Below are positions 4,557 to 44,511 of a stretch of DNA of 64,000 bases, one piece after another. Position 1 is the stretch's first letter; each line of letters starts with the position of its first letter. The stretch comes from Omphalotus guepiniiformis (taxonomy: Eukaryota > Basidiomycota > Agaricomycetes > Agaricales > Omphalotaceae). The stretch lies in NCBI GenBank assembly GCA_028554645.1, contig JAQOOI010000007.1, forward strand, positions 1 through 64,000, given 5' to 3'. Both the position numbers and the translations under genes were made by a program. The notes beneath the pieces were generated by a model. It ran no database searches and was not told where the DNA came from. It worked only from the letters and a program-made list of their open reading frames with translations.

Positions 4557-6401
4557 TGTTGCGTCAAAAAGCCTTTCAGTACTGAAATCTATCGGATTGA
4601 AGTAAATATGGAATGTTCAAGCATTGGAAACTGAACATAAAGGACTAGAGTCACCCCAGACTGCTAGTTAAGACATGAAACAGACTTGTACTCACAATAC
4701 CTAAGTGTAGTGTTTGCTACAGTACTGAATCTGGTACTAAGCAACTGTGACCAATGGGTTATACAAAGAGATACTAGTTATGCCTCTCAAGATGTGTTGG
4801 AATTCCAATGTTCCATACCAGATTGAGTTGGTCAGACCCACCCTCTAATAACTAGAGACTCTACCAAGTGTTGTTGACTGTAATCCAAGGGGTTGATGGA
4901 TTTTCACTTCAATTGAACAACTATCTAAGTCCTTTGGACTGATCAAAAGTTCCAGCTGGTCTTGCTAACTAAGTTGGCACTATAAGATTGAATGCTGAGA
5001 ATATGGGCAATCTTGAAGATTGTATTACCAGAGAAATATCTGTACATTGAGTACTATGTGGATATAATGTCACTGAGATGAAATGCCAATCTGTGTAATA
5101 AGGGAAGTAGATTCAAAAGTTACATCTGCACAAATGAGTTAGATACTCAATACTCATGCTGGAAGGAGTTAGATACTGAAAATGAGTATCTCTCTGGATC
5201 TGAGTATCTCTCTGAAATTCAGTAACCCTCTGAACTTGATGAAAGACAAAGGCGCTCTAATTGGAGGTCTTAGACGAAACTATGGGATAGAATACTGTCC
5301 TAGGAGAAGCTGAGAGCTATCCTAAACAAGAAATATAACCTGAGTACAAATCTGACCAAAAAGAGATGTATAGGGGTAAAACTTGAAATAAACAGTTACT
5401 GTACCTTACTGTGGCTGATAGAAACGATGAAGCATGGTCTAGATAAGCTCTAGAACTTCTACACAACTCCTAATGCTGCCCTAGTAGAGGAGGATGTGCC
5501 AATTTTGGAGAAACTTATAGGGGACCAGATTTGCAATGCACTAAGGAGAATGTCACCTGTCAGGATACTGGTTGCTATTTACAGGATCTGGACCTTTATT
5601 TAGATACCCTGGGTACGCCCTAACACACCTAGAACGCGGACAAAGCGATATATTTCTGTTTTTATACCAATCTATACCCAAAGTTCCTTCATTTTGACTA
5701 TCTAACTGGAAAATTACCTAGAAAACTACCTAAAAAGAATCCAATCTCTGCTCAATTGATACTTACTTACTTTTGACTCATTTACTGTTCAGATTACTCT
5801 TTTAATTTCGAGATATATGTTTGATTTTATGATTTAGTATATATAGTTTACAGAGTATCTATTTAGATTTTCTTAAGCAAGTACTGCCCAAAGCTACAAG
5901 CCAAAGCAGGAAAACCTTCTTAGACGAAATATAGCCTGGCTCTTTAGAGTTCAGTTCGAGAAATATCCAGTTGTGAAAACTTCTGTAAAGTCCCTTGTGG
6001 CAGATAAATTGAAAGAGATACTGAATCTTTGCTGAAACTGCTGTTCTGTCTGTGCTGAATCTGCCTGCTGAAACTGTCTGTGCTGCATCTGAAACTGTTC
6101 CCTGCATTGTCTGACCATTGGATCGAGTTTAAACATCGAGATTGATTGTCCTGAATCCCTCCTGAACCCTGAAAACCACCCTTACCTTCTGTCTGAATCT
6201 TGTGTTTTGAGATACCCTCTGCCATTTTTCACCCAGATTGAGATAAAGACATCTGTAACCCTGCAGATTAAAAGTTCAATTGTTGCGTCTAACTGTGCGG
6301 AATCTCTGACAACGCCAGTCACACCTCACCCTACATCATTTTGATTTGAGTTGGATTGTGCTCATTTGAGTATCTCTCTCGTTCATTTCATAGTCACTAC
6401 A
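4557..6401 (+). repeat. A1 5' LTR (1845 bp)
   Basis: Bounded by TG at 4557 and CA at 6400-6401 and nearly identical to 19246-21089. It contains a TATATATA stretch at 5838-5845 that could be the core promoter, several AGTTAGATACT/AGTATCT motifs (near 5138, 5168 and 5190), and a CTG-rich segment (6030-6110). The same LTR occurs six times in the window (A1 twice, A2 twice, A3, A4). Confidence 0.95.
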
Positions 6402-6421: not shown

Positions 6422-6910
6422 GTGGCTTTAGACTTGATAATTGAACTATCTGTGTATTTACACGTGTCTGGAAATAAATCTGGACTTTTTCTGTGTTGAA
6501 CTTTGCCCTGTTCCTCACTTAGCAACAATTTCCTTGAAGTTGTTGAACCATCTATAAGTTTTATAACTTAGAGTTTGCTTGTCAAAATTAGCAGCTCACA
6601 GAGAAACACACGTCCTAGAAAGACTAAGAATTCTGAGAGAGCTGGAACAGAAGAATTGTCACTGAACCAGTCATCCAGAAGGAAAAGTTCCAAAGGAAAA
6701 GAGAAAGAAGTCATACCTGAACCAGATTCAAGTTCCCTTTCGTCTCTTTCGTCCCTAAGTACTATTCCTGAACGGAATACACCTCCAGATTTATCTGAAC
6801 TCTCAGCTAGATACAAGAAAAATAAGAGGAACTTTGTTAACAGTCCTCAATATTTTGCCTTGACACATAAAAGAATCCCTGTTAAAATAATAAGGAACCC
6901 GAGAAACAAT

Positions 6911-8485
6911 ATGTCTACTCATGACAATGCTACTGGGAATGAAGCTCCCCAACAACAAGGACCTACCCAAGGACCTGTTGAGATGGAAGAGATCTTCATT
7001 TTTGGAAATGCAACAGGAATGCAGATTCCTGTTCCTGCAGCTAAAGAGTTGCAAAATGAGAAACTACCTAAAGTCTCTAAGCAGGCCCCCATCTTCGATA
7101 AGAAACATCCATCTGAATTGGTTGCATGGTTGGCAGAGCTGGAAGGCATCTTTGTGTCAACCGGAACTAAAACAGATGCGGCTAAAGTGATGTTGGCACT
7201 CAGATACATGGAGTTCCATACCCGTGAAGAGTTTCAACGGCTTCAAGCTGTTAAAGATTTGGATTGGGATGCTTTCAAAGAGGCATTAATGAAAAATTTC
7301 CCTGAATCTGCAGATAGAGGACTGGGATCTAGACAAAGATTGTATGCTATCATTGATGCATATAAGCTCATAGTGCTTGGTGCTATTCAGAAACTGATGG
7401 CATTTAAAAGAGAGTATGAGATTGAGTATGAGAAACTATCTTCTGGTACTACACCTGTAGTATCAAACTCAGAAGCTGTAGCTGGTTTCTTGAGTGCACT
7501 AGATGAACCCTTCAGAAGAAAACTTCTGGACCGCTTAGAAAACAAAGTGATCAATGGCCACTTACAAGTTCAGAGAGAGGATGACCCTTTTACTCTGAAA
7601 GATGTAATGTCTGAGGCTGAAAAACTCTGTTCTGTAAAAAGAGCAGGGGGATACAACTTTGGTTTATTCTTGAATGGTCCAAATCTGGCAGAAGGATACT
7701 CTAGGATACTCCCAACAACTGAGCAGAGTGCTACAAGGAAGTTATATGATCCTTACCAAGTAGCATCTACTGTGAAGTCAGAACCAGATCAGTGGGCAAT
7801 GAAATTGTCTGCAACAGTGGATAGTCACCAGAACCAGTTTAACCAGATTAGACAAGCCCAGGAAACGAATCTGGCAGCTCTTGCAAAGCTATCTGAGACA
7901 GTTGCTAACTTGGCAAAAATGACCCAAGCAACTTCTAGCTCAGTTAGGATGAACATGAATGCTCCAAATTCCCAATCTGGACCTGGAATGAACTCTAATG
8001 GACACAATAGTGTACAAAGATCGTCCCAGATGTCATCTGTGAATAATAATACTCATGCTGACTCCAATTGCTATATGTGTGATGAGCCTGGACATAGATC
8101 TATGGACTGTCCACATCAACTTAGATTTATCAGGTTGGGGTGGATGATCAAGAATAGTGCTGGTAAATGGGCATTGAAAGATGGAGTATATTGGCCAAGA
8201 GCTGATCCGTCTGATACTCGGTCTAAGAAAGAGAAGATTGAGGAAATTGCCAAAAGACATGGATGGGAACAACCTTCCTCTCATGTTGACCAGAACTTGT
8301 ATGCTTTTGAAGATGAGGATTCTGCTATGGCAGGTCCCTCTCAAAGTAGTTCATTAGATGCTATCAACAGCCTTGTTGCTCAATTCAGTCAGGTTTGCAA
8401 TACTTTGCAGAATCTGGCACCAGCAGCTAAATCTGAAACTAAGCAGATTTTGAAACGAGAAAACAACTCTGAGTCGAAAAACTAG
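6911..8485 (+). CDS. gag: A1 Gag (capsid/nucleocapsid)
   Basis: Structural protein that packages element RNA. The frame is open from 6572 to the TAG at 8483-8485. The first in-frame ATG is 6911 (524 aa); the 112 codons before it have no ATG but are Ser/Lys-rich and open in A2 as well, so a non-AUG start or an upstream splice is possible. The central region resembles a Ty3-type capsid domain (PIFDKKHPSELVAWLAELEG, then a DLDWDAFKEALMKNFPE block). A CX2CX4HX4C zinc knuckle (CYMCDEPGHRSMDC) begins at 8069. The C-terminal part is Ser/Asn/Gln-rich. The next ORF starts 8 nt downstream in the -1 frame, with a slippery-type GAAAAAC directly before the stop. Confidence 0.9.
   Translation: MSTHDNATGNEAPQQQGPTQGPVEMEEIFIFGNATGMQIPVPAAKELQNEKLPKVSKQAPIFDKKHPSELVAWLAELEGIFVSTGTKTDAAKVMLALRYMEFHTREEFQRLQAVKDLDWDAFKEALMKNFPESADRGLGSRQRLYAIIDAYKLIVLGAIQKLMAFKREYEIEYEKLSSGTTPVVSNSEAVAGFLSALDEPFRRKLLDRLENKVINGHLQVQREDDPFTLKDVMSEAEKLCSVKRAGGYNFGLFLNGPNLAEGYSRILPTTEQSATRKLYDPYQVASTVKSEPDQWAMKLSATVDSHQNQFNQIRQAQETNLAALAKLSETVANLAKMTQATSSSVRMNMNAPNSQSGPGMNSNGHNSVQRSSQMSSVNNNTHADSNCYMCDEPGHRSMDCPHQLRFIRLGWMIKNSAGKWALKDGVYWPRADPSDTRSKKEKIEEIAKRHGWEQPSSHVDQNLYAFEDEDSAMAGPSQSSSLDAINSLVAQFSQVCNTLQNLAPAAKSETKQILKRENNSESKN
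8476..8482 (+). promoter_or_regulatory. Candidate -1 frameshift site, gag to pro (A1)
   Basis: G AAA AAC in the gag frame lies immediately before the TAG stop. After a -1 slip reading continues as KLEFPMKEIG into the second ORF, whose frame is open from 8473. The heptamer differs from canonical A AAA AAC in its first base, and P-site re-pairing would rely on a G-U wobble. Reinitiation at ATG 8494, 8 nt past the stop, is the alternative. The site is identical in A2 (34613-34619). Confidence 0.5.
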
Positions 8486-8493
8486 AGTTTCCA

Positions 8494-9891
8494 ATGAAGG
8501 AGATTGGTGAAGAAGCTGTATATACTCAGAATCCTTCTCACAAAACAGGTCAATCTCCTGAGGAAAATAAACTTGTAAAGAAAAAGAGAGTTGAAGTATT
8601 ACTACCTACACTAAGACCATCTGAAAGGGAGAAATACAGACCCCCTGCTATGAGAAAAGAGCCCGTTCGTTTTGAACTACCCGTTGATTCTGACACTGAG
8701 GAGATTGAATCTCCCTCTGAAAATAACAACGATGTTGCACGGAGAGTATCTAACCGTCCGTTTGATCATGTAAAGGCAATAGATAGGCCACCTATACCAA
8801 AGGGAATGCCTGTAGGAAGCCAGAACAAGTCAAATGAGACTGAAGGAGCTCAATCTGGAACTAAAGATGGAATGAGTAATGATATAAGGAATGCTATTGT
8901 ATACACAAAGCCTCCGCGTAAATCTGAGCCCGATTTCAAGCTTAGAAACTCACTATTCAAACCGGGTCTAGCAGAAGAAATTGCAGACAAAATCTTTAGA
9001 TCTGAGATAGATATAAGTAGTGGGGACCTCATTGCTATATCTCCGGCACTTCAGAAGATTATGCAGAGAAAATTGAAGAACAACAGGGTGTATAAGCGTC
9101 CTGTAAAGGCTTTTGTTCATGAAGTAAGGGATGAAGATGATCCTGATGGTATTCTACCAGAAGAAGATGTCAATCTGGTACAGGCAAATTATATGGTCTT
9201 TATTGAAGATATGGCCTATGAAAGGGAAGATGTGTTTATTGTCCTAGATGAAGACACAGATGACCTTAAGAAAGGCTCAGTGGTACACAAGGATGTTGTG
9301 GACCAGTATCAGAAAGATGTACCTCCAGATGAGAGGAACAAGATCATTATAGTAGCCAGCCAGACTGACAGTCTAAAGGCAATCTACCCAAAGATTAATC
9401 ACTCTGATCAACAAGTTGAGACAGTAGTTGATAGTGGTTCTCAAATCGTGTCCATGGATACAAGAGTAGCTATTGGACTTGGTTTAAGATGGGACCCAGA
9501 GACTGTGATCCATATGCAAAGTGCAAATGGTCAATTACAGGCTACTAGGGGACTAGCAAGAAATGTACCATTTACCTTTGGAGAAATAACTATCTATATG
9601 CAGATCCACATAATAGATAAAGTGCCTTATGATGTTCTTTTGGGAAGACCATTTGATGTGTTGACAAGCAGTGTAGTCAGAAACTTTGAAACTGGAGAAC
9701 AAGAGATCACCATTACAGATCCAAACAGTGGAATGAAGTGTACAATGGGAACATATGACAGAGGTAGAGGAATTAAGGTTAAACCTATTCCTGGTGAACC
9801 AAAGCTTGTCCCAGAAACACAGAAATCTGCGAGTGTCCCTGTGAAAAATGAGGGAGACTCTCAAAATTTTCATCGGACCTCAATGAACTGA
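8494..9891 (+). CDS. A1 second ORF: aspartic protease-containing protein
   Basis: 465 aa from ATG 8494 to TGA 9889-9891. Residues 1-250 are charged and apparently disordered, with an acidic patch near 210-265. The C-terminal part carries a retropepsin-like domain: VDSGSQIV with catalytic Asp at residue 313 (codon at 9430), then a VLLGRPF block about 70 residues later, matching the second conserved strand of aspartic proteases. The role is to process Gag and Pol. In most Ty3/gypsy elements protease lies in the pol frame; here it occupies its own frame, offset -1 from gag and from the following RT-integrase ORF. A2 has the same ORF with scattered substitutions. Confidence 0.85.
   Translation: MKEIGEEAVYTQNPSHKTGQSPEENKLVKKKRVEVLLPTLRPSEREKYRPPAMRKEPVRFELPVDSDTEEIESPSENNNDVARRVSNRPFDHVKAIDRPPIPKGMPVGSQNKSNETEGAQSGTKDGMSNDIRNAIVYTKPPRKSEPDFKLRNSLFKPGLAEEIADKIFRSEIDISSGDLIAISPALQKIMQRKLKNNRVYKRPVKAFVHEVRDEDDPDGILPEEDVNLVQANYMVFIEDMAYEREDVFIVLDEDTDDLKKGSVVHKDVVDQYQKDVPPDERNKIIIVASQTDSLKAIYPKINHSDQQVETVVDSGSQIVSMDTRVAIGLGLRWDPETVIHMQSANGQLQATRGLARNVPFTFGEITIYMQIHIIDKVPYDVLLGRPFDVLTSSVVRNFETGEQEITITDPNSGMKCTMGTYDRGRGIKVKPIPGEPKLVPETQKSASVPVKNEGDSQNFHRTSMN
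9864..9870 (+). promoter_or_regulatory. Candidate -1 frameshift site, pro to pol (A1)
   Basis: A AAT TTT fits the XXXYYYZ rule in the protease frame. The pol frame is open from 9852, well upstream of its first ATG at 9927. The predicted extension (LSKFSSDLNELIRDQGE...) is conserved with A2. The two A1/A2 differences in the overlap (9875 and 9887) are silent in the pol frame but change Arg to Gln and Asn to Ser in the protease frame, as expected if the upstream pol frame is translated. Confidence 0.65.
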
Positions 9892-9926
9892 TAAGAGATC
9901 AGGGAGAGGTAGCTGTTTGTATTGAA

Positions 9927-12900
9927 ATGGATGAAGATGGCAATGCCACAATTGCTGGATATAAGCTGCCAGACAATGAATTGTTTTCAGAACCTGAAAA
10001 GGCTGAGGCATTTGTGTTTGCAGCTGAATCCATCATAAGAGAAAACGATATAGCGGCTGCAGATTCGGTTAGATCGTATTTAAATCGGTCTGTAGACTCA
10101 GAAAAGAAACAAGTGTTCTGTACCTGGCGAGAAAATTTAAATTTGAATTCAAAAGAGCACTTAGATACTCAGAATTCAGACTTAGATACTTGCACGGTAC
10201 TTAATCACACTTCGGAACCCGCATCTGGAACTGAAAAGAGGATGAATAAGGGTAAAACGGTCAAAAGAGAACCGAAACCAGTCCAATCTTCAAGACCCAG
10301 ATGGAGTAGAGATAAGAATGGCAACAAAATGGCCAGATTGGTGACTGTTTTGGCTTCTAGAAAGTACAAACCAGTTGCTATTAAGGTCAAACCTGTTAAA
10401 GCTACCTTACCTGCGGAGTTCCGGATTGAAAGAAAAATAATTGGAGATCCGTTAAAAGATATGCCTGAGTTACCTACTCATCCTCCAGATTTCACTCCTG
10501 GTGAGAGGTACTCTCAAGAAAGAAAAGAAATTGTAGACAAGAATCATAATGAAGGTTTCTTATGGCCTGAAGAAATGAAACTTGTACACCATCTTATGAA
10601 AGTCCAAGAAAAAGCATTTGCATGGGAAGCATCTGAAGGAGGAACCTTTAATACAGAGTTCTTTCCTCCAGTAAAGTTTCCAGTGTTACCACACACTCCT
10701 TGGGTAGAAAGGAATATTCCTATACCTCCAGGGATCTATGATCAAGTGTGTAAAATGATTAAGGACAAAATAGATGCTGGTGTATATGAGCCTTCTAGTT
10801 CATCCTATAGATCCAGATGGTTCTGTGTCTTAAAGAAAGATGGGAAAAGCTTAAGATTGGTCCATAGTTTAGAACCACTCAATAAAGTGACTATTCAACA
10901 TTCAGGAATTCCTCCTGCAACTGCAGATATAGCTAGAAGCTTCTCTGGAAGAGCATGTTTGGGTTTACTGGATATCTTTGTTGGGTATGATGAGAGGCTG
11001 GTTGATAAAAGTTCAAGAGATCTTACAACCTTCCAAACACCTTTTGGCCCACATAGATTAGTGAAGTTACCTATGGGTTGGACAAACTCTGTCCCTATCT
11101 ATCATGATGATGTTACATATATCTTCAGAGATGAAATTCCACATGTAACTAAACCTTACATTGATGATGTACCAGTAAAAGGGCCTGTCAGCAGATATGA
11201 AACTGCAGATGGAGGTTATGAAACTATCCCTGAAAATTCTGGCATCAGAAGGTTTGTGTGGGAGCATCTGCAGAATATGAACAGAATTGTGCAAAGAATG
11301 AAACATGCTGGTGGTACCTTTGCAGGGACCAAAGCTTTCATCTGTGTAGCTGAAGGTGATGTTGTTGGACATCATGTCAGTTATGAAGGAGAAAAGCCAG
11401 TGGAAAGGCTAGCTGAAGTTGTCCTGACTTGTGATGCATCAAAATGGTCTGAGAAGAAAGATATCCGGTCATTTTTGGGCACTGCTGGTCAGATGAGAAT
11501 GTTCATAAAGGATTATGCCAAGAAAGCAAAACCTTTGACAATCTTAACTGGAGATGTGCCTTTTCAAATGGGTCCTGCAGAACTGGAAGCTGTAGAAATG
11601 ATTAAAGATGGGATTAGGAATGCTCCAGCACTCCGTCCTATTGACTATGATTTAAGTACTGGAATCACCCTTTCAGTAGATACTTCCTGGATGGCAGTAG
11701 GTTTCCAACTATATCAGAGAGACCCTGCAGATTCAAAGAAAAAGTTCTACAATTGGATGGGTTCTATTACCTTAAATGAGAGAGAAGCAAGGTTTTCTCA
11801 ACCCAAGAGAGAACTATATGGCTTGATGTTGGCCTTACAACAAACATACTACCAGACATATGGATGTAGGGATCTTACTGTGGAAACAGATGCAAGCTAT
11901 ATTAAAGGAATGCTTGACAAACCCAGTAGTGGTCCCAATGCAACTATAAACAGATGGATTGAAGAAATAAGGAAGTTCCACTTCACCTTGGTACACATCA
12001 AGGGCACTGAACATAAGGGACCAGATGGACTATCTAGACCACCTAGAGGAACCATACCAACTGAAAGAGCGGCATCTAGAGATCCGGATTCATTTGTTGA
12101 TGAAGATGATGGTCTGCCGGTGAAATTCAGAATGGGAGATGGTGAATCTGAGGTACCCTTTGATTTGGAAGCCTTTAAAGATGAAATAGATACTCGAGGT
12201 GGTTACTTGCAGGAAGTTGCAAAGTCAATAGACGACTTTGAGGACGATTTGCAAGAAGCTCTTGAAGAAGAACGTCACTTGAATTCCATTAGAGAGCTGT
12301 TAGCAATTCAACATCCAGTATCTAACTCAATGTTGCAGTTTGCACAGACCTTGGTTATACCTGAAGGAGGTACTGAATGGAAACATGAACACCCATATAG
12401 AAAGGATCACAGATCTGCATCTACAAAGGAACTGGATGAACAACTCGACCTAATCAAAAATTGGTACCTGCAGGGCAATCAGCCTCTAGCTCACCTAGGT
12501 GAGACTGCTATGAAAAAGTTCATTTCCAGGGCTGTAAAGTTCTTTGTAGACAGAGATGGGAGACTCTATAGAAGGAATGATGATACAGGAGGCCAGCATA
12601 GACTGGTTGTGCCTAAAGAGAAAAGGATGTACATGATGCATGCTGCTCATGACCATCTGGGACATAAAGGAATGTTTGCAACAAAAGCTCTCATAGAGAA
12701 GCGTTTTTGGTGGCCAGATTTGAATGGAGATGTCAATTGGTTTGTCAAATCCTGCCAAATCTGCCAGAACCGAAAATTAGAATTGTTGAAGATTCCTCCC
12801 ACTCTTACACACACTCCCTCCCTGTTTCAGAAGATTCATGTGGATGTATTTAAAGTATCACCTCCAAGTAATGGTTGCAAGGATGTTGTACATGGCAGAT

Positions 12901-14003
12901 GTGCACTCTCATCCTGGTCTGAAGGAAGAGCCTTAAGATCTGACAATGCTAGATCATTGGGGGAATGGTTCTTTGATGATATTATATGCAGATGGGGATG
13001 TCCGGATGAAGTAGTAACTGATAATGCACCCCAGATGCGAGCTATGCTTAAATGGCTAGAAGATAAATATGGAATTAAAGGAATTACTATATCTCCTTAC
13101 AATTTCCAAGCAAATGGCAAGATTGAGAGAGCCCACTTTGACATTAGAACTGCCTTGGCAAAAGCTACAGGTGGAGATCTAAAGAGATGGTGGTGGTTTC
13201 TCAAACATGTCTTCTGGGCAGATAGAATTACAGCTAGAAAAGGACTTGGATGTTCACCATACTTCCTTGTTACTGGAGCTGAACCTATCCTACCCTTGGA
13301 TATTGTTGAATCTACATGGTTAGTGAAACTTCCAGATAGAATCTTGACATATGAGGAACTTATTGGCTACAGAGCTCAAGCTCTAGCTAAGCATAGAACC
13401 CATGTGCAGGAGATGATATCTAGAATTGATACAACCAAGAAAGAGACTCTTAGACAATATGAAGAAGAATACAGAAATGTTATCAGAGACTTTGATTTCA
13501 AACCTGGTACACTTATACAAGTCAGAAATACACAAGTTGAGAAGAACTTGGACAGAAAAATGTATCCTAGATACCTGGGACCCATGATTGTAATAAGGAG
13601 AACCAAAGGGGGATCCTACATTGTGGCCCAGATGGATGGCACAGTACTCAGAGAAAAGGTTGCTGCCTTCAGAGTACTACCCCATGTAGCTAGATATGAA
13701 CCAATTCAACTGCCTGAGAACATTCATGAACTTATAGACTTGACTAGTGAACAACTAGAAGAGATGGTCAATGATAACAATGAGCTAGACCCTGAACTTG
13801 AGAGAGATTACATCTTTGACAGTATTCCTCAACTGAGAATTCCTGCTGAAGATGAAGATCTTGATGAGTCCAGTGATGAAGAACTACAATCTGCAAACGA
13901 TGCAGATGAAGAAGAACCAGATTGGGACGCTCCAGTCCAGACCAGGTCTCAAGCTTCACAAATAAATGATAAACACACTATATTTGAACAAAGTAAGAGA
14001 TAG
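9927..14003 (+). CDS. pol: A1 Pol: reverse transcriptase, RNase H, integrase
   Basis: 1358 aa from ATG 9927; coding probably begins upstream by frameshift. Reverse transcriptase has an LLDIFVGYDER block and the catalytic YIDDV at residues 411-415. RNase H follows (SVDTSWMAVG, ETDASY, ending HIKGTEHKGPDGLSRPP). Integrase has an HHCC-type zinc region (HDHLGHKGMF ... CQICQ) and catalytic D973, D1032 and E1067, with 34 residues between the last two rather than the usual 35. A GPY/F-like segment (RYLGPMIVIRR) follows, with an acidic tail and no chromodomain. A1 has Phe1060 in the YNxQANG motif where A2 has Ser, and a one-base change near the end gives a longer C-terminus than A2. The ORF converges on the antisense gene ending at 14171. 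Confidence 0.93.
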   Translation: MDEDGNATIAGYKLPDNELFSEPEKAEAFVFAAESIIRENDIAAADSVRSYLNRSVDSEKKQVFCTWRENLNLNSKEHLDTQNSDLDTCTVLNHTSEPASGTEKRMNKGKTVKREPKPVQSSRPRWSRDKNGNKMARLVTVLASRKYKPVAIKVKPVKATLPAEFRIERKIIGDPLKDMPELPTHPPDFTPGERYSQERKEIVDKNHNEGFLWPEEMKLVHHLMKVQEKAFAWEASEGGTFNTEFFPPVKFPVLPHTPWVERNIPIPPGIYDQVCKMIKDKIDAGVYEPSSSSYRSRWFCVLKKDGKSLRLVHSLEPLNKVTIQHSGIPPATADIARSFSGRACLGLLDIFVGYDERLVDKSSRDLTTFQTPFGPHRLVKLPMGWTNSVPIYHDDVTYIFRDEIPHVTKPYIDDVPVKGPVSRYETADGGYETIPENSGIRRFVWEHLQNMNRIVQRMKHAGGTFAGTKAFICVAEGDVVGHHVSYEGEKPVERLAEVVLTCDASKWSEKKDIRSFLGTAGQMRMFIKDYAKKAKPLTILTGDVPFQMGPAELEAVEMIKDGIRNAPALRPIDYDLSTGITLSVDTSWMAVGFQLYQRDPADSKKKFYNWMGSITLNEREARFSQPKRELYGLMLALQQTYYQTYGCRDLTVETDASYIKGMLDKPSSGPNATINRWIEEIRKFHFTLVHIKGTEHKGPDGLSRPPRGTIPTERAASRDPDSFVDEDDGLPVKFRMGDGESEVPFDLEAFKDEIDTRGGYLQEVAKSIDDFEDDLQEALEEERHLNSIRELLAIQHPVSNSMLQFAQTLVIPEGGTEWKHEHPYRKDHRSASTKELDEQLDLIKNWYLQGNQPLAHLGETAMKKFISRAVKFFVDRDGRLYRRNDDTGGQHRLVVPKEKRMYMMHAAHDHLGHKGMFATKALIEKRFWWPDLNGDVNWFVKSCQICQNRKLELLKIPPTLTHTPSLFQKIHVDVFKVSPPSNGCKDVVHGRCALSSWSEGRALRSDNARSLGEWFFDDIICRWGCPDEVVTDNAPQMRAMLKWLEDKYGIKGITISPYNFQANGKIERAHFDIRTALAKATGGDLKRWWWFLKHVFWADRITARKGLGCSPYFLVTGAEPILPLDIVESTWLVKLPDRILTYEELIGYRAQALAKHRTHVQEMISRIDTTKKETLRQYEEEYRNVIRDFDFKPGTLIQVRNTQVEKNLDRKMYPRYLGPMIVIRRTKGGSYIVAQMDGTVLREKVAAFRVLPHVARYEPIQLPENIHELIDLTSEQLEEMVNDNNELDPELERDYIFDSIPQLRIPAEDEDLDESSDEELQSANDADEEEPDWDAPVQTRSQASQINDKHTIFEQSKR

Positions 14004-14170
14004 ACACTGAAAAGTGACTACCTAACTGCAGATGAAAGTAAAAAGTGGGTAACAGTAGTATGCACTACTAAGATAAACATAAAGGGTGTCTGAGGATGTC
14101 CTATACGGTGTACCAATACCGTGTAAACTGCCCATAAATGATACTGAGATGTCCAGATGTAACATTAAAG

Positions 14171-15573
14171 TCAGAGAATGTCTGCAGATGGAAATGCATG
14201 GAAAGGAGCTGGATCATCAGCAGTACCTGGACCAGACTCCAAGGGACTCTGGTTGGCCCTGTAAGCCTTCTCCTTCTGTCTTCGGAGCAATTCCAGACGG
14301 GAAAACTCCTTGTAGGCAAATCTGTACTGAGAATGATGATACTGAATGGGATGTTGATGAACACTGAGTTCTGTCTTCAAGAAGTTGGAAATTGATTGAA
14401 GAACCTCAGGAGAGAAGTGGTCCAAGTCCATGAAAGGGAACAGAGCAGTGATACGAGTCACAATCTCTTCTCCACTCTCCCGGAGTTTGCGCTCATCTGC
14501 AGGATAATTGAGTTAGATACTCGAAAAAAGCCGCAGATTGGGTGACTACTCACGGTCTGTCTCCTCTCTAAGGTTGACGATTGGGTTCTCAATCCGAGGC
14601 TTCTTCATGACAATCACCTTGTGGGGCTCAGGAATAGGTTCATTCTACATGAACATTTATAGTCAGTACATAAAACTGCATGAATATCTCCAGATGGAAC
14701 TAAAAACTTACATCTTTGGGTCCAACTGAGGTAGCCTGAAAAGTTACCAAGGTACATCAGTCAAGAGAAACGAATGAACAGTTCTGAACATAAATCTGCT
14801 TACCCTTGGAGAAGTAGTTACTACTTTTTCCTTGGAAGACTTATGAACTGTGGTAGTAGTGGGAGAACCTTTGGTTTTGTCCTTGCTAGAGTCCTTGTTA
14901 TCCTTATTGGGAGCGTGGATCGACGCAGAAAGCCCAAGGGAAGGTCCATCTGCCATCTGAGAAAAGAAAGACCATGTTGGGATTTGAGTTAGATACTCAG
15001 TAACCAAGGAGTTAGATACTTACAGTAACGTCTCCGTCACCAGTAATGACCTCAATCTCTTCATCGTCATCATCATCATCCTCAATAAGTTCGGGAGTTT
15101 TAGCTGGCTACACACCGATAGGCAGTTAGATACTCGAAATGAGAGGGATGGTCAATAAAAACGTACTTTGCGCTTCTTAGACCCACTAAGAGTCTCTCTG
15201 CGCTTTGCCAAGTCGTCCCGGAAAGCTTTAATGGCGAAGAAAGTGTCAGGTTCACCTACAGATGGGAACTTCTTGACTGCATCTGCGACCAGATTGACAC
15301 CTTTGTCGAACAAAGTGAACGCTTCCTCGGACTTAGCAACTGCATATGCAGGCAGAGACTTCTTCTGTAATAAGAAATCAAGTTAGATACTGGACCTGGA
15401 ATCAAAGATTGAACATTTACAAGATGACTAGCAAGGGCTGTAATAAGCATCCCAAGCAGTTCAGTATCCGCATCTTTGGCCTCCATGGCTCCAGTAGCTC
15501 GAGAAAGATATCGCTGCGTTGTGGCAACCCACTCAGGACGCTCAGGCCAAGTCTTGGGACCTTTAGGGGCCAT
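14171..15573 (-). CDS. Antisense gene II of element A (A1 copy), seven exons, unknown function
   Basis: Hand-built model. Exons are 15421-15573, 15167-15364, 15024-15107, 14804-14956, 14712-14735, 14554-14644 and 14171-14496, joined by GT-AG introns of 56-68 nt, giving about 342 aa. The start is ATG 15571-15573 (MAPKGPKTWPERPEWV) and the stop is TGA at 14171. Four introns contain CTAAC inside GTATCTAACT 15-35 nt before the acceptor, a good fungal branch site. Exon 2 encodes a helical segment ending in a basic GSKKRK, possibly a nuclear localisation signal. Exon 3 is strongly acidic (six consecutive Asp). Exon 4 is Ser/Thr/Lys-rich, and exon 7 is helical (LFPFMDLDHFSPEVLQSISN) with an Arg/Lys-rich stretch. 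It is convergent with pol, 167 nt away. I do not recognise the family. A2 carries the same gene with intact splice sites as far as I can see. A host-derived or element-borne nuclear protein is inference. Confidence 0.7.
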
Positions 15574-16412
15574 AACTGTAAAATATAGAGATAGAGAAAT
15601 GATAAAAGTGGAAGGGTTGTAGAACCAAGTGATAGATGGTGCTGAGTCGTTCTGAATCTGCGCTGCACCTTTTATATCTGGTCTACCCCGTCTAAATCTG
15701 CAAGTTGGTCATTACTCCTATGCTGTTCAAACAGGCACAATGAGGCCTAGCCAGCGTAGCAGATTGATCAACGGGGACGTTGAAGTTAATTTTACTTGGG
15801 GGGAGAGAGCACACAAAGTTTACAAGGCCAAAAATTTTGAATTTTTGAAATTTCAAATATCTCAAATCTGGAGATCTAGACAGCTTTGACCGCAGAGGAC
15901 TTAGCCGAATAGCATTGCCGAGTAATCAAAAAGCTCTCAACCTTGACAGAAAGGACTTATTAAATTCAATGTATCCTCAAAAAGAAATGATACCTATTGA
16001 AAATTGTGGGCTTAAGTCATTTAAAGAATTGTTTCCCTCTAAAATCGAGTGAGATACTCAATTTGAAGGAGACTCTCAAATTGATTTCTTAGGTTTCACA
16101 CCAGATTCATACCAAGAAAAATGGGATATATATATTTGAGCATAAAAGCTCAGGACTATGATAAAGATACTTTGACCTATACTACTATAAAGTAAGTACA
16201 GGGAGTATCTGCGAGTAAACGATACGTTAAGATATATATATTTGGGCAACCTGGTGTGTTGAACACCAAGGCTACCCGCGACGAAATGCGAACGGATCTG
16301 GCAGGTCCCAGCCAAGCGAAGAAAGCGACAGATCTGTGAGATTGGGACTGAGAGATGGAGAAAGTAAAGGGAAAAAGGGGTACGAACTATGCGTGCACCC
16401 GAGCCTTGAAAG
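15574..16412. other. Spacer between the two antisense genes of A1
   Basis: Probably holds the promoter of antisense gene II and the 3' untranslated region of antisense gene I. It includes the internal PPT-like module at 15766-15808 and an AT-rich segment (15830-16200). A TATATATA stretch lies near 16128. No sense ORF of note. Confidence 0.5.
15766..15808 (+). repeat. Internal polypurine-tract-like module (A1)
   Basis: CGGGGACG followed by ATTTTACTTGGGGGGAGA closely matches the 3' PPT module at 19208-19245 (CGGGGACG, then ATTTTACTTTGGGGGAGA). It could be a second (central) plus-strand primer or a relic of an earlier 3' end. Because both copies also sit 220-310 bp upstream of an antisense start codon, it could instead be a shared antisense promoter element. 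Confidence 0.7.
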
Positions 16413-18941
16413 TCACTCTGAGAGGGGATCGTCCCTCCCAGCTAGTGGACTGCTTTCTGGCACCAGTACCTTGCCGGCTGTCTCCTCCTCCAGCTCGTCT
16501 TCCTTGTCTTCGTCCTCTTCGACCGTGACTTGCGAAGCACCGACCGCCTGAGGCGATTCGTCGATGTCAGCTGTAGCAACGGGAGTAGAACGGATATTGG
16601 AAGGACCGGGCTGCGGCTCGACCTCTGGATCCACCACGATGAAATGACCTGCTTCGTTCCTAGCGATGTAGCTGGCCCGAGACACCAGGTTGATGTCCCA
16701 TCCAAGCGCGGTAGCCAGTAGTTTGAGCTGTTCGTCCGAATAGTCGAACGTCGGGTCGCCAGTCTGAACCTGATGTAAAACGAGACGAGGATCGCGACAC
16801 GAAGCTTTGATATGATCTTGACGCTGCAAAATCGTTCGGTGTACCCGTTCCATCGCCCGCATCTGCGCGGAGACGCTGTTCTGCATGTCCTCGTAGGTGT
16901 CGATGAGAATCTGCAACTGCTCAGCTTCCTGAGAGACAACTAAGAAACGAAGAACCTTTAGTAAAAAGATGTCTAAAGAAATGAAAGGAATACTTACCTG
17001 TACTGCCGCTGCGAGCCAATGTGTATGAAAGGCATCGCAACTGATCGCTGCCTTCCAAACCGTACGACCAGCTACAGGTATGGTTGTCCTTTGCGCAGGT
17101 AGCGCAGCGCCATTCGAAAGTCTTGCTGTTGAACTGAGGACGGCATTCTCTACCTTCAGTGTGAGTACCGCCGACGCAGGCAGCACAAATGGAGTCGCCG
17201 AAGAACTAAAAGAGTGACGAAAAGAAAATTTAGCGGGTATTAATCTCGAGTCAGAAAGATACTCACCCTATCGAATGTGCGGTTGACTGAAACGAGTTGC
17301 TGTAAAGTAACAGGACGGCCATAAGGCCATCCAAAGACAACACGGCCTGTAAAAGAACCGTTAAACAAACACTAGAAAAATGAAATAAAAGAGATACTTA
17401 CCGGGTATCGCTTCAAAGTCCTCCTTCGCACGATTTTGAGGTGTTCGTCCATCCGATCGCTAAGGAAAGACATTGTCAGTAAAAGGAAATGAAATAAAAA
17501 GAAATGACAAGACTTACTTGAAGATTTGGGGCCTCGTAACGAGTGCCCGGAGCAAGAGAAACAGAAGAAGTAGAGAAATCAGCGCGAGAAGCCCATAGAG
17601 GTGCCTCAAAGTCGACGTTGAGATTGACTGGGGCCTTAGCACCCTCAGTCTTGACCAATTTCTCCTCTTCCTTCTTCTCCTCTTCCTCGTCGCTGGATGC
17701 AGGAACAGTAATTGAAGTCGCCTTGGAGCGAGTCTTTCGAGACGCTGGGTCATCGGCAGGCTCTTCCACACGCATCTTCCAAATCTTCGGTTTTGGCTTG
17801 ACCACCTGTTTACCCTTGCCCTGTGTAAGAAAACATGAGAAAAGAATAAATAAATCTATAAGGAAACGTACCTTTGAAGCTACAGCTGCAGGCTTCTTAC
17901 CCTCAGAAACGCGAGACTTCTTGACCGGAGGCTCAGAGTTCTCGGACTCGAAGTCAGTATCATCGTCGTCGCCGTCGGTCAGCTCAGTAGATTCGGCCGT
18001 GGCTTCAACGTCGGAGATCTTGCGTTTCATCTAAAAATGATAAAATAAGAAGGACCTCTTCAAACAAAAAGAAAAGACATACCGAACGACCCGGTAAGGG
18101 CGTTACACTAGTCTTGGCCTTTGGCTTTGGCTTTGGCTTTGGTTTTGAAACCGGTGCCGAAACCTTCGAAGATTCAGCGCGAGCAACCTTGGCGGACGAA
18201 GCCAGTGTGGCGAGAGGCGGGAGTAAGATCTCATCGTCGTCGTTGTCTTCCTCGAGCTGCGGAGTTTGCTTAAGCTTAGGAAATGGGGGTAGTGGTTCCC
18301 ACAAATTGCGAAGCTGTAAAGAGTTAGCAAAAGAAATGAAACCAGTCTGAGAGATACTTACTGTATACTTGAGGCAGAAAGCATCAAGTTTAGCGCGGTT
18401 TAGCCCCCAGGGCGGCACAATAAATGAAGTCGGTTTGGCCTGATGAAGCCATAAAGCGAGATTGCATACAGAAAGAAAAGAACCGGTAAAATAGTCGGGA
18501 AGATGTGTATGTGCTCGCTGGGACCGATTAAATGTTAAAGCGATGCGAGTCTGTAAAGATGAGATTAGCTATAACGAAGATGAAAAGAAATGATGCCTAC
18601 CAAGGCGAGATTCAAATCGTCGAAAGCGGATGTAATGGTCCTCAACCTAAGACCCTTTCCAAACTCCTTGAACGATTGGTCCCGTAGACGTCGGTCCAAG
18701 TCGCCTAGCCTTGAAACGATGGCGGAAAGAGCCTTGTAATCTTCTTCGTTCATGTCTGAGAGCTGTGAGAGGGAAAAGAAAAGAAAGAGGCCGTCAATTG
18801 AGAGCGGTTCTCGAATATATATGTGACACACTGTGAAAAGCAGCGCGTGAGAGAAAGGAATTAAAAAGGACTTACCGGTACCTCGGAAGGCTCCCTACTG
18901 AGAGTGATAGAGGAAGCCAATTGCCTGGAAAAGTCATCCAT
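16413..18941 (-). CDS. Antisense gene I of element A (A1 copy), ten exons, cysteine-motif protein
   Basis: Hand-built model. Exons are 18876-18941, 18601-18762, 18362-18550, 18083-18313, 17872-18030, 17518-17820, 17402-17459, 17267-17346, 16998-17205 and 16413-16939. All introns are GT-AG, eight of 48-61 nt and the first 113 nt, and phases agree throughout, giving about 660 aa. The start is ATG 18941 (MDDFSRQLASS). Residues 23-140 are a helical, well-conserved domain (DLDRRLRDQSF, PPWGLNR). 160-370 is charged and Lys/Glu/Asp-rich with a KPKPKPKPK run and likely nuclear signals (MKRK, VKKSR). Residues 423-460 hold CX2CX10CX12CX2CX6C, a possible zinc-binding motif of a kind I associate with basidiomycete multigene families. 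A coiled coil (about 487-520) and an acidic tail follow. Function unknown. The gene recurs in A2 (one nonsense change) and in part in A3. Confidence 0.75.
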
Positions 18942-19245
18942 CGGGGGACGAAGTGAGATGTGAAGAGAAAACGAGAATCACTGTCTGTTTAAGTCGAAAC
19001 TTCGACAGAAGTAGATTGCGGGTTTCGCCGAAGTCTGACATTGCCGTCACATGCCGATGTAAATATATTGACTGGCGATCAATCGAGAAAAGTTTTGCCT
19101 GAAGGCAGTCCGTGAGACGTGATATTGTGATATTGAACAGTACGAAATGTGCTTCTATGACAAATCTGCTAGTAATAATTGTATCTAACTCGATTTTGGC
19201 CAATCTGGTACGATCGGGGACGATCTTATTTTACTTTGGGGGAGA
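18942..19245. other. A1 upstream region of antisense gene I with the 3' polypurine tract
   Basis: The sense strand ends in the PPT module (CGGGGACG at about 19214; ATTTTACTTTGGGGGAGA ending at 19245), which abuts the 3' LTR and primes plus-strand DNA. Read on the minus strand this is the immediate upstream region of antisense gene I. The same 300 bp is conserved at 45119-45422 (A2) and 60647-60950 (A3). Confidence 0.7.
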
Positions 19246-21089
19246 TGTTGCGTCAAAAAGCCTTTCAGTACTGAAATCTATCGGATTGAAGTAAATATGG
19301 AATGTTCAAGCATTGGAAACTGAACATAAAGGACTAGAGTCACCCCAGACTGCTAGTTAAGACATGAAACAGACTTGTACTCACAATACCTAAGTGTAGT
19401 GTTTGCTACAGTACTGAATCTGGTACTAAGCAACTGTGACCAATGGGTTATACAAAGAGATACTAGTTATGCCTCTCAAGATGTGTTGGAATTCCAATGT
19501 TCCATACCAGATTGAGTTGGTCAGACCCACCCTCTAATAACTAGAGACTCTACCAAGTGTTGTTGACTGTAATCCAAGGGGTTGATGGATTTTCACTTCA
19601 ATTGAACAACTATCTAAGTCCTTTGGACTGATCAAAAGTTCCAGCTGGTCTTGCTAACTAAGTTGGCACTATAAGATTGAATGCTGAGAATATGGGCAAT
19701 CTTGAAGATTGTATTACCAGAGAAATATTGTACATTGAGTACTATGTGGATATAATGTCACTGAGATGAAATGCCAATCTGTGTAATAAGGGAAGTAGAT
19801 TCAAAAGTTACATCTGCACAAATGAGTTAGATACTCAATACTCATGCTGGAAGGAGTTAGATACTGAAAATGAGTATCTCTCTGGATCTGAGTATCTCTC
19901 TGAAATTCAGTAACCCTCTGAACTTGATGAAAGACAAAGGCGCTCTAATTGGAGGTCTTAGACGAAACTATGGGATAGAATACTGTCCTAGGAGAAGCTG
20001 AGAGCTATCCTAAACAAGAAATATAACCTGAGTACAAATCTGACCAAAAAGAGATGTATAGGGGTAAAACTTGAAATAAACAGTTACTGTACCTTACTGT
20101 GGCTGATAGAAACGATGAAGCATGGTCTAGATAAGCTCTAGAACTTCTACACAACTCCTAATGCTGCCCTAGTAGAGGAGGATGTGCCAATTTTGGAGAA
20201 ACTTATAGGGGACCAGATTTGCAATGCACTAAGGAGAATGTCACCTGTCAGGATACTGGTTGCTATTTACAGGATCTGGACCTTTATTTAGATACCCTGG
20301 GTACGCCCTAACACACCTAGAACGCGGACAAAGCGATATATTTCTGTTTTTATACCAATCTATACCCAAAGTTCCTTCATTTTGACTATCTAACTGGAAA
20401 ATTACCTAGAAAACTACCTAAAAAGAATCCAATCTCTGCTCAATTGATACTTACTTACTTTTGACTCATTTACTGTTCAGATTACTCTTTTAATTTCGAG
20501 ATATATGTTTGATTTTATGATTTAGTATATATAGTTTACAGAGTATCTATTTAGATTTTCTTAAGCAAGTACTGCCCAAAGCTACAAGCCAAAGCAGGAA
20601 AACCTTCTTAGACGAAATATAGCCTGGCTCTTTAGAGTTCAGTTCGAGAAATATCCAGTTGTGAAAACTTCTGTAAAGTCCCTTGTGGCAGATAAATTGA
20701 AAGAGATACTGAATCTTTGCTGAAACTGCTGTTCTGTCTGTGCTGAATCTGCCTGCTGAAACTGTCTGTGCTGCATCTGAAACTGTTCCCTGCATTGTCT
20801 GACCATTGGATCGAGTTTAAACATCGAGATTGATTGTCCTGAATCCCTCCTGAACCCTGAAAACCACCCTTACCTTCTGTCTGAATCTTGTGTTTTGAGA
20901 TACCCTCTGCCATTTTTCACCCAGATTGAGATAAAGACATCTGTAACCCTGCAGATTAAAAGTTCAATTGTTGCGTCTAACTGTGCGGAATCTCTGACAA
21001 CGCCAGTCACACCTCACCCTACATCATTTTGATTTGAGTTGGATTGTGCTCATTTGAGTATCTCTCTCGTTCATTTCATAGTCACTACA
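19246..21089 (+). repeat. A1 3' LTR (1844 bp)
   Basis: Nearly identical to the 5' LTR (for example one base deleted near 19728). The last 17 codons before 21090 are accidentally open and in frame with the copia ORF that follows. Confidence 0.95.
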
Positions 21090-40308: not shown

Positions 40309-41710
40309 TCAGAGAATGTCTGCAGATGGAAATGCATGGAAAGGAGCTGGATCATCAGCAGTACCTGGACCAGACTCCAAGGGACTCTGGTTGGCCCTGT
40401 AAGCCTTCTCCTTCTGTCTTCGGAGCAATTCCAGACGGGAAAACTCCTTGTAGGCGAATCTGTACTGAGAATGATGATACTGAATGGCATGTTGATGAAC
40501 ACTGAGTTCTGTCTTCAAGAAGTTGGAAATTGATTGAAGAACCTCAGGAGAGAAGTGGTCCAAGTCCATGAAAGGGAACAGAGCAGTGATACGGGTCACA
40601 ATCTCTTCTCCACTCTCCCGGAGTTTGCGCTCATCTGCAGGATAATTGAGTTAGATACTCGAAAAAGCCGCAGATTGGGTGACTACTCACGGTCTGTCTC
40701 CTCTCTAAGGTTGACGATTGGGTTCTCAATACGAGGCTTCTTCATGACAATCACCTTGTGGGGCTCAGGAATAGGTTCATTCTACACGAACATTTATAGT
40801 CAGTACATGAAACTGCATGAATATCTCCAGATGGAACTAAAAACTTACATCTTTGGGTCCAACTGAGGTAGCCTGCAAAGTTACCATGGTACATCAGTCT
40901 AGAGAAACGAATGAACAGTTCTGAACATAAATCTGCTTACCCTTGGAGAAGTGATTACTACTTTTTCCTTGGAAGACTTATGAACTGTGGTAGTAGTGGG
41001 AGAACCTTTGGTTTTGTCCTTGCTAGAGTCCTTGTTATCCTTATTGGGAGCGTGGATCGACGCAGAGAGCCCAAGAGAAGGTCCATCTGCCATCTGAGAA
41101 AAGAAAGACCATGTTGGGATTTGAGTTAGATACTCAGTAACCAAGGAGTTAGATACTTACAGTAACGTCTCCGTCACCAGTAATGACCTCAATCTCTTCA
41201 TCATCATCATCGTCATCCTCAATAAGTTCGGGAGTTTTAGCTGGCTGTACAAAGACAGGCAGTTAGATACTCGAAATGAGAGGGATGGTCAATAAAAACG
41301 TACTTTGCGCTTCTTAGACCCACTAAGAGTCTCTCTGCGCTTTGCCAAGTCGTCCCGGAAAGCTTTAATGGCGGAGAAAGTGTCAGGTTCACCTACAGAT
41401 GGGAACTTCTTGACTGCATCTGCGACCAGATTGACACCTTTGTCGAACAAAGTGAACGCTTCCTCGGACTTAGCAACCGCATATGCAGGCAGAGACTTCT
41501 TCTGTAATAAGAAATTAAGTTAGATACTGGACCTGGAATCAAAGATTGAACATTTACAAGATGGCTTGCAAGGGCTGTAATAAGCATCCCAAGCAGTTCA
41601 GTATCCGCATCTTTGGCCTCCATGGCTCCAGTAGCTCGAGAAAGATATTGTTGTGTTGTGGCAACCCACTCAGGACGCTCAGGCCAAGTCTTGGGACCTT
41701 TAGGGGCCAT
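40309..41710 (-). CDS. Antisense gene II of element A (A2 copy)
   Basis: Start ATG at 41708-41710, stop at 40309. The seven-exon structure of the A1 copy is preserved, including GTAAAT, GTACGT and GTAAGT donors and CTAAC branch sites. A few amino-acid changes (for example Arg to Gln at residue 21 of exon 1, Pro to Ala in the HQHPIQ region). No stop or frameshift noticed, so the reading frame has been maintained since the copies separated. Confidence 0.7.
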
Positions 41711-42550: not shown

Positions 42551-44462
42551 TCACTCTGAGAGGGGATCGTCCCTCCCAGCTAGTGGACTGCTTTCTGGCA
42601 CTAAGACCCTGCCCGTCGTCTCCTCCTCCAGCTCATCCTCCTTGTCCTCATCCTCTTCGACCGTGACTTGCGAGGCACCGACCGCCTGAGGCGATTCGTC
42701 GATGACTGTAGCAACGGGAGTGGAAGGAACATGGGATGGACCAGCTTGCTGCTCGACCTCTGGATCCACCACGACGAAACGACCAGATTCGTTCCTAGCG
42801 ATATAGCTTGCCCGAGACACCAGGTTGATGTCCCATCCAAGCGCGGTAGCCAGTAGTTTGAGCTGTTCGTCCGAATAGTCGAATGTCGGGTCGCCAGTCT
42901 GAACCTGATGTAAAACGAGACGAGGATCGCGACACGAAGCCTTGATATAATCTTGACGCTGCAAGATCGTTCGGTGTACCCGTTCCATCGCTCACATCTG
43001 CGCGGAGACGCTGTTTTGCATGTCCTCGTAGGTGTCGATGAGAATCTGTAATTGTTCGGCTTCCTGAGCAACAACTAAGAAACGAAGAACCTTTAATAAA
43101 AGATGTCTAAAGAAATGAAAGGAATACTTACCTGCACTGCCGCTGCGAGCCAACGTGTACGAAAGGCATCGCAACTGATCACTGCCTTCCAAGCCATAGG
43201 ACCAGCTGCAAGTATGGTTGTCCTTTGCGCAGGTAGCACAGCGCCACTCGAAGGTCTTGCTATTAAGTTGAGGGCGACATTCCCTACCTTCAGTGTGTGT
43301 CCCACCTACGCACGAAGCACAGATGGAATCGCCAAAGAACTAGATAAGGACAGAGAGAAATGTTAGTGAATATCTCTCTCGAGTCAGAGAGATACTCACC
43401 CTGTCGAATGTGCGGTTGACCGAAACAAGCTGTTGTAAAGTAACAGGACGGCCGTAAGGCCATCCAAAAACTACACGACCTGAAAAGTAACCGTTAAACC
43501 AACACTAGAAAAATGAAAGTTGAAAAGGTACTTACCAGGTACCTGCTCAAAGTCCTCCTTGGCACGATTCTGCGGTGTTCGGCCATCTGAGCGCTGAGGA
43601 AAGACATTGTCAGTAACTAAGATGCTGCAATAGAGAAAAGAAGCCTTACCTGAAGATTTGGCGCCTCGTAACGAGTGCCCGGAGCGAGAGACACAGAAGA
43701 TGTCGAGAAGTCAGCACGAGAAGCCCATAGCGGAGCCTCGAAGTCGACGTTGAGATTGACGGGGGCCTTAGCACCCTCAGCCTTGACCGCTTTCTCCTCT
43801 TCCTTCTTCTCCTCTTCCTCGTCGCTGGATGCTGGGACTGTGACTGGAGTTGCCTTAGATCGCGTCTTTCGAGACGCTGGTTCATCGATCGGTTCCTCCA
43901 CTCGCGTCTTCCGGATCTTTGGTCGTGGCTTGACCACCTGTTTACCCTTGCCCTGTGTAAGAAAATATGAGAAAAGAATAAATAAATCTACAAAGAAAAA
44001 AACGTACCTTTGAAGCTGTCGCTGCAGGCTTCTTACCCTCAGAAATGCGAGACTTCTTAGCCGGAGGCTCAGGGCTCTCGGACTCAAAGCCAGCGTCATC
44101 GTCGTCGTCGTCGGTCAGCTCAGTAGATTCGGCCGTTGCTTCAACGTCGGAAATCTTGCGTTTCATCTAAAAATAATAAGAATGAGAAATGACAACTTCA
44201 AACAAAAGAAAAGACTTACCGAACGACCCGGTAAGGGCGTTACACTAGTCTTGGCCTTTGGCTTTGGCTGAGGCTTTGGTTTGGAAATGGGTGCCGAAAC
44301 CTTCGAAGATTCAGCGCGAGCAACCTTGGCGGACGAAGCAAGTGTGGCGAGGGGCGGAAGCAGGATTTCGTCGTCATCGTTATCTTCCTCAAGCTGCGGC
44401 GTTTGGTTAAGCGTGGGAAACGGAGGCAGTGGTTCCCATAGATTGCGAAGCTGTAAAAAGTT

Positions 44463-44511
<49 letters not shown>

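Follow-up and report, generated by a model that had tools for sequence, protein, structure and literature searches.

A Ty3/gypsy element with two genes on the opposite strand

The window analysed here is a stretch of 64,000 nucleotides from Omphalotus guepiniiformis. It carries a young Ty3/gypsy element, A1, whose near-identical LTRs enclose gag, protease, RT-RNase H and integrase, in the order of an autonomous element of this class (Table 1). Gag and protease overlap at 8473-8485, protease and pol overlap at 9852-9891, and the three occupy three different frames, suggesting that two -1 frameshifts may serve their expression. At the sites where a target-site duplication would lie, the flanks of A1 are TCGG and GCGG, which match at three of four bases, and those of a second copy in the window, A2, are TCGC and TCGC. 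Among the 120 relatives of pol listed of 1333, the named ones come from Lentinula, Moniliophthora, Armillaria, Agaricus and Coprinellus. One listed relative is labelled as an archaeal metagenome assembly, which we take for a mislabel. A search of viral contigs with pol returned no relative.

Table 1. Features of element A1 and of the other copies in the window (positions within the 64,000 nucleotides).
Feature	Position	Strand	Remarks
5' LTR of A1	4557..6401	+	99.95% identical to 19246-21089 over 1845 columns
gag frame, stop to stop, with CCHC knuckle	6572..8485	+	zf-CCHC E=0.0038, below Pfam's cut-off
protease frame	8473..9891	+	aspartyl protease match; 13-nt overlap with gag, other frame
pol frame: RT-RNase H, integrase	9852..14003	+	PF17917, PF17919, PF17921
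ORF-A	14171..15573	-	seven exons, six introns, 342 aa; between pol and ORF-B
ORF-A exons	15573-15421, 15364-15167, 15107-15024, 14956-14804, 14735-14712, 14644-14554, 14496-14171	-	
stem-loop before internal polypurine tract	15767..15784	+	
internal polypurine tract TTTTACTTGGGGGGAGA	15790..15806	+	between ORF-A and ORF-B; near copy of 3' tract
ORF-B	16413..18941	-	ten exons, 660 aa, between pol and 3' LTR
ORF-B exons 1-5	18941-18876, 18762-18601, 18550-18362, 18313-18083, 18030-17872	-	
ORF-B exons 6-10	17820-17518, 17459-17402, 17346-17267, 17205-16998, 16939-16413	-	
ORF-B exon 9	16998..17205	-	six-cysteine motif (residues 423-460)
ORF-B exon 10	16413..16939	-	long helix, small helical domain, acidic tail
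presumed antisense promoter region	18942..19245	-	ORF-B start to 3' LTR
stem-loop before 3' polypurine tract	19210..19227	+	
3' polypurine tract TTTTACTTTGGGGGAGA	19229..19245	+	abuts 3' LTR
3' LTR of A1	19246..21089	+	
ORF-A of A2	40309..41710	-	open
ORF-B of A2 (locus L030)	42551..45118	-	one premature stop
5' part of A3 ORF-B	60951..61729	+	interrupted by solo LTR

The ORF-B gene. The initial annotation described ten exons opposite gag-pol that join through nine GT-AG introns into about 660 aa and carry a CX2CX10CX12CX2CX6C motif. Our model agrees in each of these respects, with a coding length of 1983 nt and introns of 48-113 nt. An exon-chaining score of 72.5 was obtained on the antisense strand versus 11.3 on the sense strand, and 60 first-order Markov samples of the region had a mean of 16.2 and a maximum of 33.2; the scored chain has seven exons, and the ten-exon model was set by hand afterwards. 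A gene finder weighted by the codon usage of gag-pol missed the gene, and one that disregards codon usage found it. The presumed promoter region has a mean pairwise divergence among copies of 0.022 versus 0.069 in ORF-B.

The same exon-intron structure had been attributed to A2 and, for the first six exons, to a third copy, A3. A2 does share the structure, with its reading frame interrupted at residue 513. In A3 the six exons can be followed only across a solo LTR (61737-63583) that sits in exon 4 and is flanked by a 4-bp CCGG target duplication. The A3 gene picks up again at 63597 and extends beyond the end of the window.

The ORF-A gene. A second spliced antisense gene, absent from the initial annotation, is also present in A2. 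Exons 1-3 form an open frame in 30 of 33 copies, and the last exon occurs at no fewer than 61 places in the genome, with an internal stop in one of the 61 listed. When A1 is compared with locus L041 of a sister family (see below), two exons give dN/dS of 0.07-0.08 at dS of 1.1-1.7 and a third is saturated. The possibility that ORF-A and ORF-B are paralogues was rejected, the best match between them covering 16 residues (E=0.032).

Coding status of ORF-B

A search of the genome (42.5 Mb, 80 contigs) yielded at least 42 DNA matches to the ORF-B region. Full-length regions, which were spliced by alignment, are found at 34 of 44 loci; the remaining loci hold partial or interrupted copies or belong to other families. 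The gene is open from start to stop in 28 of the 34 full copies, including one with a 99-base in-frame deletion (L039) and one with an AT donor (L018), and is broken in six (L013, L024, L027, L028, L034 and A2). Introns begin and end with GT-AG in 304 of 306 cases. Exon indels in the open copies come only in multiples of three (-6, -3, +3 and one of -99), and intron lengths also vary by 1, 2 or 4 nt.

Pairwise dN/dS, taken as a ratio of sums, comes to 0.083 where dS exceeds 0.3 (125 pairs) and to 0.12-0.19 in the bins below, values drawn from 26 intact copies and biased downward by that restriction. Among twelve windows along the gene, pN/pS is lowest around the cysteines (0.03, codon columns 421-480) and next lowest at codon columns 61-180 (0.05). 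As a frame control, ten representative copies were read in each frame. The true frame has a pN/pS of 0.10 with pS of 0.30 and zero stops, and other frames give 1.91, 2.72, 1.47 and 3.32. The mirror frame reaches 0.21, yet contains 20 stops per copy. Introns differ at p of ~0.13 versus a silent-site dS of ~0.45, but four-fold sites stand at 0.19-0.23, so the gap shrinks; what remains we put down, provisionally, to intron constraint and multiple-hit correction. One copy, L012, has an outlying dN (0.05-0.09), and a local frame change is suspected there. It was counted in the 26-copy dN/dS and in the tract tally given below, and was excluded from the block trees and the divergence plot.

The initial annotation had named dN/dS near 1 and confinement to a single locus as outcomes that would speak against a maintained gene. 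The ratio is far below 1, and the region recurs in the 34 full copies and in two further families. Judged by these comparisons, ORF-B is almost certainly a real spliced protein-coding accessory gene.

Homologues in families S and T

All loci compared, from family A (that of A1), the sister family S and family T, come from one genome. The pol of family S is 92% identical to that of A1 over 809 aa, and its LTR begins TGTCGC. Both ORF-A and ORF-B occupy the same places as in A1. Five S loci were fetched, and ORF-B was detected in four of them. The fifth, L044, is an S element with ORF-A and pol in which the place expected for ORF-B holds no detectable copy.

The ORF-B of L041 is 56.5% identical to that of A1 and has ten exons with identical phases. 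Its exon lengths are 66, 147, 189, 219, 150, 318, 58, 80, 208 and 524, compared with 66, 162, 189, 231, 159, 303, 58, 80, 208 and 527 in A1; exon 1 and the start of exon 2 of L041 were read by eye from the sequence. This is the only S locus for which a full open ten-exon chain was worked out, and the predictor's chains are altered in L040, L042 and L043.

Family T is more distant. Exon-level matches to its ORF-B protein number 164 in the genome. At L050, the only T locus fetched with pol, that pol shares 66.7% identity with A1 pol over 1371 aa, and the ORF-B homologue is on the other strand. The T protein matches residues 397-590 of A1 ORF-B with E=4.7e-19 and 27% identity over the matched part. 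Between pol and the ORF-B homologue of L050, a predicted spliced antisense gene matches ORF-A (E=5.9e-14) at 58.2 bits, versus 21.9 bits for the best of 200 shuffles. Another T homologue of ORF-B, at L045:67-1910 (minus strand), adjoins a sister-family copy.

The last intron of ORF-B falls in the identical alignment column, in phase 1, in A1 and T, and two other introns lie within a few residues of their counterparts. Coding status, constraint, recurrence in three families and kept intron positions can be read from the aligned sequences. The introns survived the retrotransposition that separates the families, which indicates that they were not removed from the genomic RNA; by the rules of splicing, antisense orientation would explain this. 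The proposal in the initial annotation that antisense placement lets introns pass through the sense RNA fits these data: sense gag, protease and pol are uninterrupted, the introns identified sit in the antisense genes, and one ORF-B intron keeps its exact place between families whose proteins are only 27% identical there. Its view of the gene as a stable accessory of the element is likewise in keeping with 34 full copies in one family, purifying selection and an antisense position behind pol in two more.

Stem-loops and polypurine tracts

The internal polypurine tract is present in 30 of 31 aligned copies (with one change in three of the 30) and the 3' tract in 31 of 31. The copy that lacks the internal tract is presumably L033, whose left flank is the LTR of another family. 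Families S and T also have both tracts. One representative was taken for each tract of each family (six in all), with L041 representing the internal tract of S by a perfect stem and three other S entries carrying a mismatch. In each representative, 5-7 perfect pairs form a stem that closes a loop of four bases, located 1-6 bases before a T-box, and shuffling gave P values of 0.0001 to 0.021 for the individual stems. Among matches to the tract pattern, a stem is present in 80 of 90 entries and lacking in 10, counts that include overlapping windows and loci and some places twice. When the six pieces of 18 bases were framed by hand, 92.9% of cells pair and 9 cells are changed in both partners; pairing drops to 9.5-45.8% when the partner is shifted by 1-3 columns. 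The six pieces are related and were chosen by structure, so this covariation is suggestive. A search of Rfam over 14000-19400 gave 0 matches.

In lentiviruses and Ty1, a central polypurine tract is a second copy of the 3' tract inside the element, accompanied by a T-rich box. The internal tract of A1 is likewise a conserved copy of the 3' tract with a T-box, and might putatively prime a second plus strand. This reading competes with one in which the internal tract is a promoter element of ORF-A with no priming function, and resembles the 3' tract because both belong to antisense promoters of a shared kind. The spacing is in favour of a promoter, as the tracts sit 217-288 bp upstream of the antisense start codons (217 and 288 in A, 220 and 284 in S). 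However, the shared T-box, purine tract and covarying stems speak for a structure in RNA or DNA more than for a binding site, and the 3' tract adjoins the LTR, as is required of a primer. We give the promoter reading serious weight, somewhat short of an even chance.

Divergence and recombination

In 300-base windows, A1 and A2 are 96-100% identical in the LTR, gag, pol and ORF-A, but only 83-95% identical from 15957 to ~18950. Across 28 copies, divergence rises near 16050 and falls back near 18780. Trees built from four blocks (part of ORF-A, 15901-16412, ORF-B and part of the LTR) reject one another in AU tests with 5000 replicates, a number that the program warned is few. These trees used 28 of the 34 copies, leaving out L013, L032, L033, L034 and L039 in addition to L012. 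The noncoding block at ~15900-16412 varies independently of ORF-B, as illustrated by L002 (5.5% versus 0.7%). The conflicting trees and the island of divergence indicate that elements recombine, with ORF-B moving as a module. On the simplest reading, the ORF-B alleles would be older than the backbone that carries them. A higher rate in the ORF-B region may instead cause the divergence, a reading that remains because ORF-B distance tracks LTR distance (r=0.78, with L012, L032 and L033 included).

CpG hypermutation as the sole cause of the divergence was rejected. Of the 204 exon differences that separate A1 from A2, 68 involve CpG, and four-fold sites in ten copies differ by 0.192 off CpG-prone contexts versus 0.233 in them.

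A bolder reading is that these elements are built of duplicable units, each an antisense intron-bearing gene with its own stem-loop and polypurine tract. The internal tract would prime a separate plus strand, making ~15.8-19.2 kb exchangeable, and elements would trade among themselves ORF-B alleles of much greater age than the backbone. We consider this doubtful and offer it tentatively. If true, antisense orientation would allow both the keeping of introns and the modular acquisition and swapping of accessory genes.

The ORF-B protein and its possible role

Whole ORF-B found no protein at E<=0.001 among 7995 scored candidates, and residues 380-560 found none at E<=0.01 among 390. No Pfam family reached its cut-off with ORF-A or ORF-B (E up to 1) or with exons 9 and 10 of ORF-B (E up to 10). 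A profile of the cysteine exon gave 6 matches to PDB sequences at E<=10, the best at 1.2. The predicted model of exon 10 has a 45-residue helix and a small domain, with block pLDDT of 85-98 over residues 1-100; a Foldseek search with it gave 101 matches at E<=10 and none at E<=0.001. The AlphaFold model of the cysteine exon has a mean pLDDT of 56.8 and is too weak for use. Since these searches gave no match pointing to a function and this model is of low confidence, zinc binding is proposed from the motif itself. By eye, ORF-B has acidic and lysine-rich stretches, and constraint is seen at the N-terminus and the cysteine cluster.

Gal4-type Zn2Cys6 clusters have the spacing CX2CX6CX5-12CX2CX6-9C. 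ORF-B resembles them in its six cysteines, in the CX2CX6C of its second half and in a coiled coil downstream. However, the cluster does not fit this class: the first spacing is 10 in family A and 8 in family T instead of 6, and Pfam lists no Zn_clus match. The first spacing also has no basic run, and the cluster is internal.

The explanation we favour, and consider likely, is that ORF-B is a genuine spliced accessory gene of a fungal (probably Agaricales) Ty3/gypsy lineage and shares the interval between pol and the 3' LTR with a second antisense gene, ORF-A. The genomic sense RNA would carry the introns of ORF-B backwards, where they offer no splice substrates, so that reverse transcription would copy them intact; the nine introns would persist because of this reversal. 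An antisense mRNA, presumably initiated between the start of ORF-B and the 3' LTR, would be spliced, and selection on the element would maintain its protein product. This product may be a nuclear, zinc-binding nucleic-acid or chromatin protein, dimeric through its coiled coil, that regulates expression of the element or counters its silencing. A role as a dimeric nuclear nucleic-acid-binding protein that acts as regulator or silencing counteractor is the likeliest reading, with roughly an even chance.

The protein might instead be a structural or assembly factor, associated with an envelope or capsid, or an integration guide. The helical parts and coiled coil are compatible with such a role, and the interval between pol and the 3' LTR is given as a site of env-like genes in the portion of PMC7264820 available to us. 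However, the acidic and lysine-rich stretches noted by eye and the cysteine cluster are more like those of a nuclear nucleic-acid-binding protein, and in the Pfam search described above no family reached its cut-off. We regard a structural role as unlikely.

Another explanation is that ORF-B is an intron-bearing host gene, recently captured in antisense and carried as passive cargo of no use to the element. Its composition stands apart: GC3 is 0.545 versus 0.324 in pol, and CpG observed/expected is 1.06 in the ORF-B exons, compared with 0.21 for gag-pol, 0.26 for the LTR and 0.49 for ORF-A. This contrast would count against an old resident gene, which need not show it, and the short introns of fungal type suggest a cellular origin at some time. 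However, purifying selection across copies and homologues at the same place in three families, with pol identity down to 67%, argue that the cargo is neither recent nor passive. Recent capture is thus largely refuted, and we hold it very improbable. Less probable still is an antisense transcript that acts chiefly as RNA, whether by forming double-stranded RNA or by interfering with sense transcription, its coding capacity being secondary: possible regulatory effects of antisense transcripts of LTR elements are discussed in part of PMC7264820, but the in-frame pN/pS, the variation at silent sites and the three-base indels all place the constraint on protein.

Comparison with known systems

Antisense ORFs have precedents in Grande, RIRE2, Retand, PvRetro13 and Boty, according to the parts of PMC11963269, PMC7264820 and PMC8365987 that were at hand, and the term aORF-3R denotes an antisense additional ORF located between pol and the 3' LTR. 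The initial annotation named such ORFs in plant Ty3/gypsy elements, which the excerpted PMC7264820 confirms for Grande and RIRE2. Maize Grande gene23 and the related ORF of rice RIRE2 are, like ORF-B, antisense accessory genes in the interval between pol and the 3' LTR, and gene23 is driven by a promoter of its own and gives a product located in the nucleus (PMC7264820, in excerpt). The comparison with ORF-B is by description only, and this review never uses the word intron. The place of ORF-B may be comparable, by analogy, to that of gene23 or of retroviral regulatory proteins.

Retand, a plant Ty3/gypsy element with an antisense TRP28 ORF, shares with A1 a long region between pol and the 3' LTR that holds antisense coding ORFs. 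These occur in nearly all recent Retand elements, and a DNA-binding role has been proposed for them (PMC11963269, in the sections available). However, A1 is fungal and has two antisense genes and two polypurine tracts. Neither ORF-A nor ORF-B matched the TRP28 family (PF04195) at E up to 1, nor did exons 9 and 10 of ORF-B at E up to 10, and the word intron is absent from the main text of PMC11963269.

Boty (BcGypsy1) of Botrytis is, like A1, a fungal gypsy element with an antisense gene, brtn (PMC7264820 and PMC8365987, citing Zhao et al. 2011, both in part), and the same partial text of PMC7264820 counts it among the antisense ORFs that follow pol and precede the 3' LTR. The host of Boty is an ascomycete, unlike that of A1, and the likeness to brtn is by description only. 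Antisense homing endonuclease genes with spliceosomal introns provide a further parallel, as intron-bearing antisense genes of a mobile element, but they reside in group I introns of fungal and protist rDNA, not in LTR elements (PMC9548176, in part). Among the matches listed in open-licence literature, as judged from titles and the starts of abstracts, there were no multi-intron antisense genes in LTR elements, no basidiomycete case and no two-gene form. Antisense accessory ORFs are thus already known, and the multi-intron, two-gene form is new among the literature matches listed.

The internal tract of A1 differs from the central tract of lentiviruses and Ty1 in that it is placed 3' of pol with an antisense gene on either side, a stem-loop precedes each copy, and its function as a primer is putative. 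Copying through RNA normally strips retroelements of their introns. In the present case two antisense genes, with nine and six introns, have been retained across families whose pol proteins are only two thirds identical. This suggests that antisense accessory genes described as ORFs can be multi-exon and that ORF-based annotation would miss them; a reading of the opposite strand that allows for splicing could be applied to other fungal elements. Laboratory retroviral vectors carry intron-containing genes backwards, and the antisense intron-bearing genes described here are a natural counterpart of this backward-insert design.
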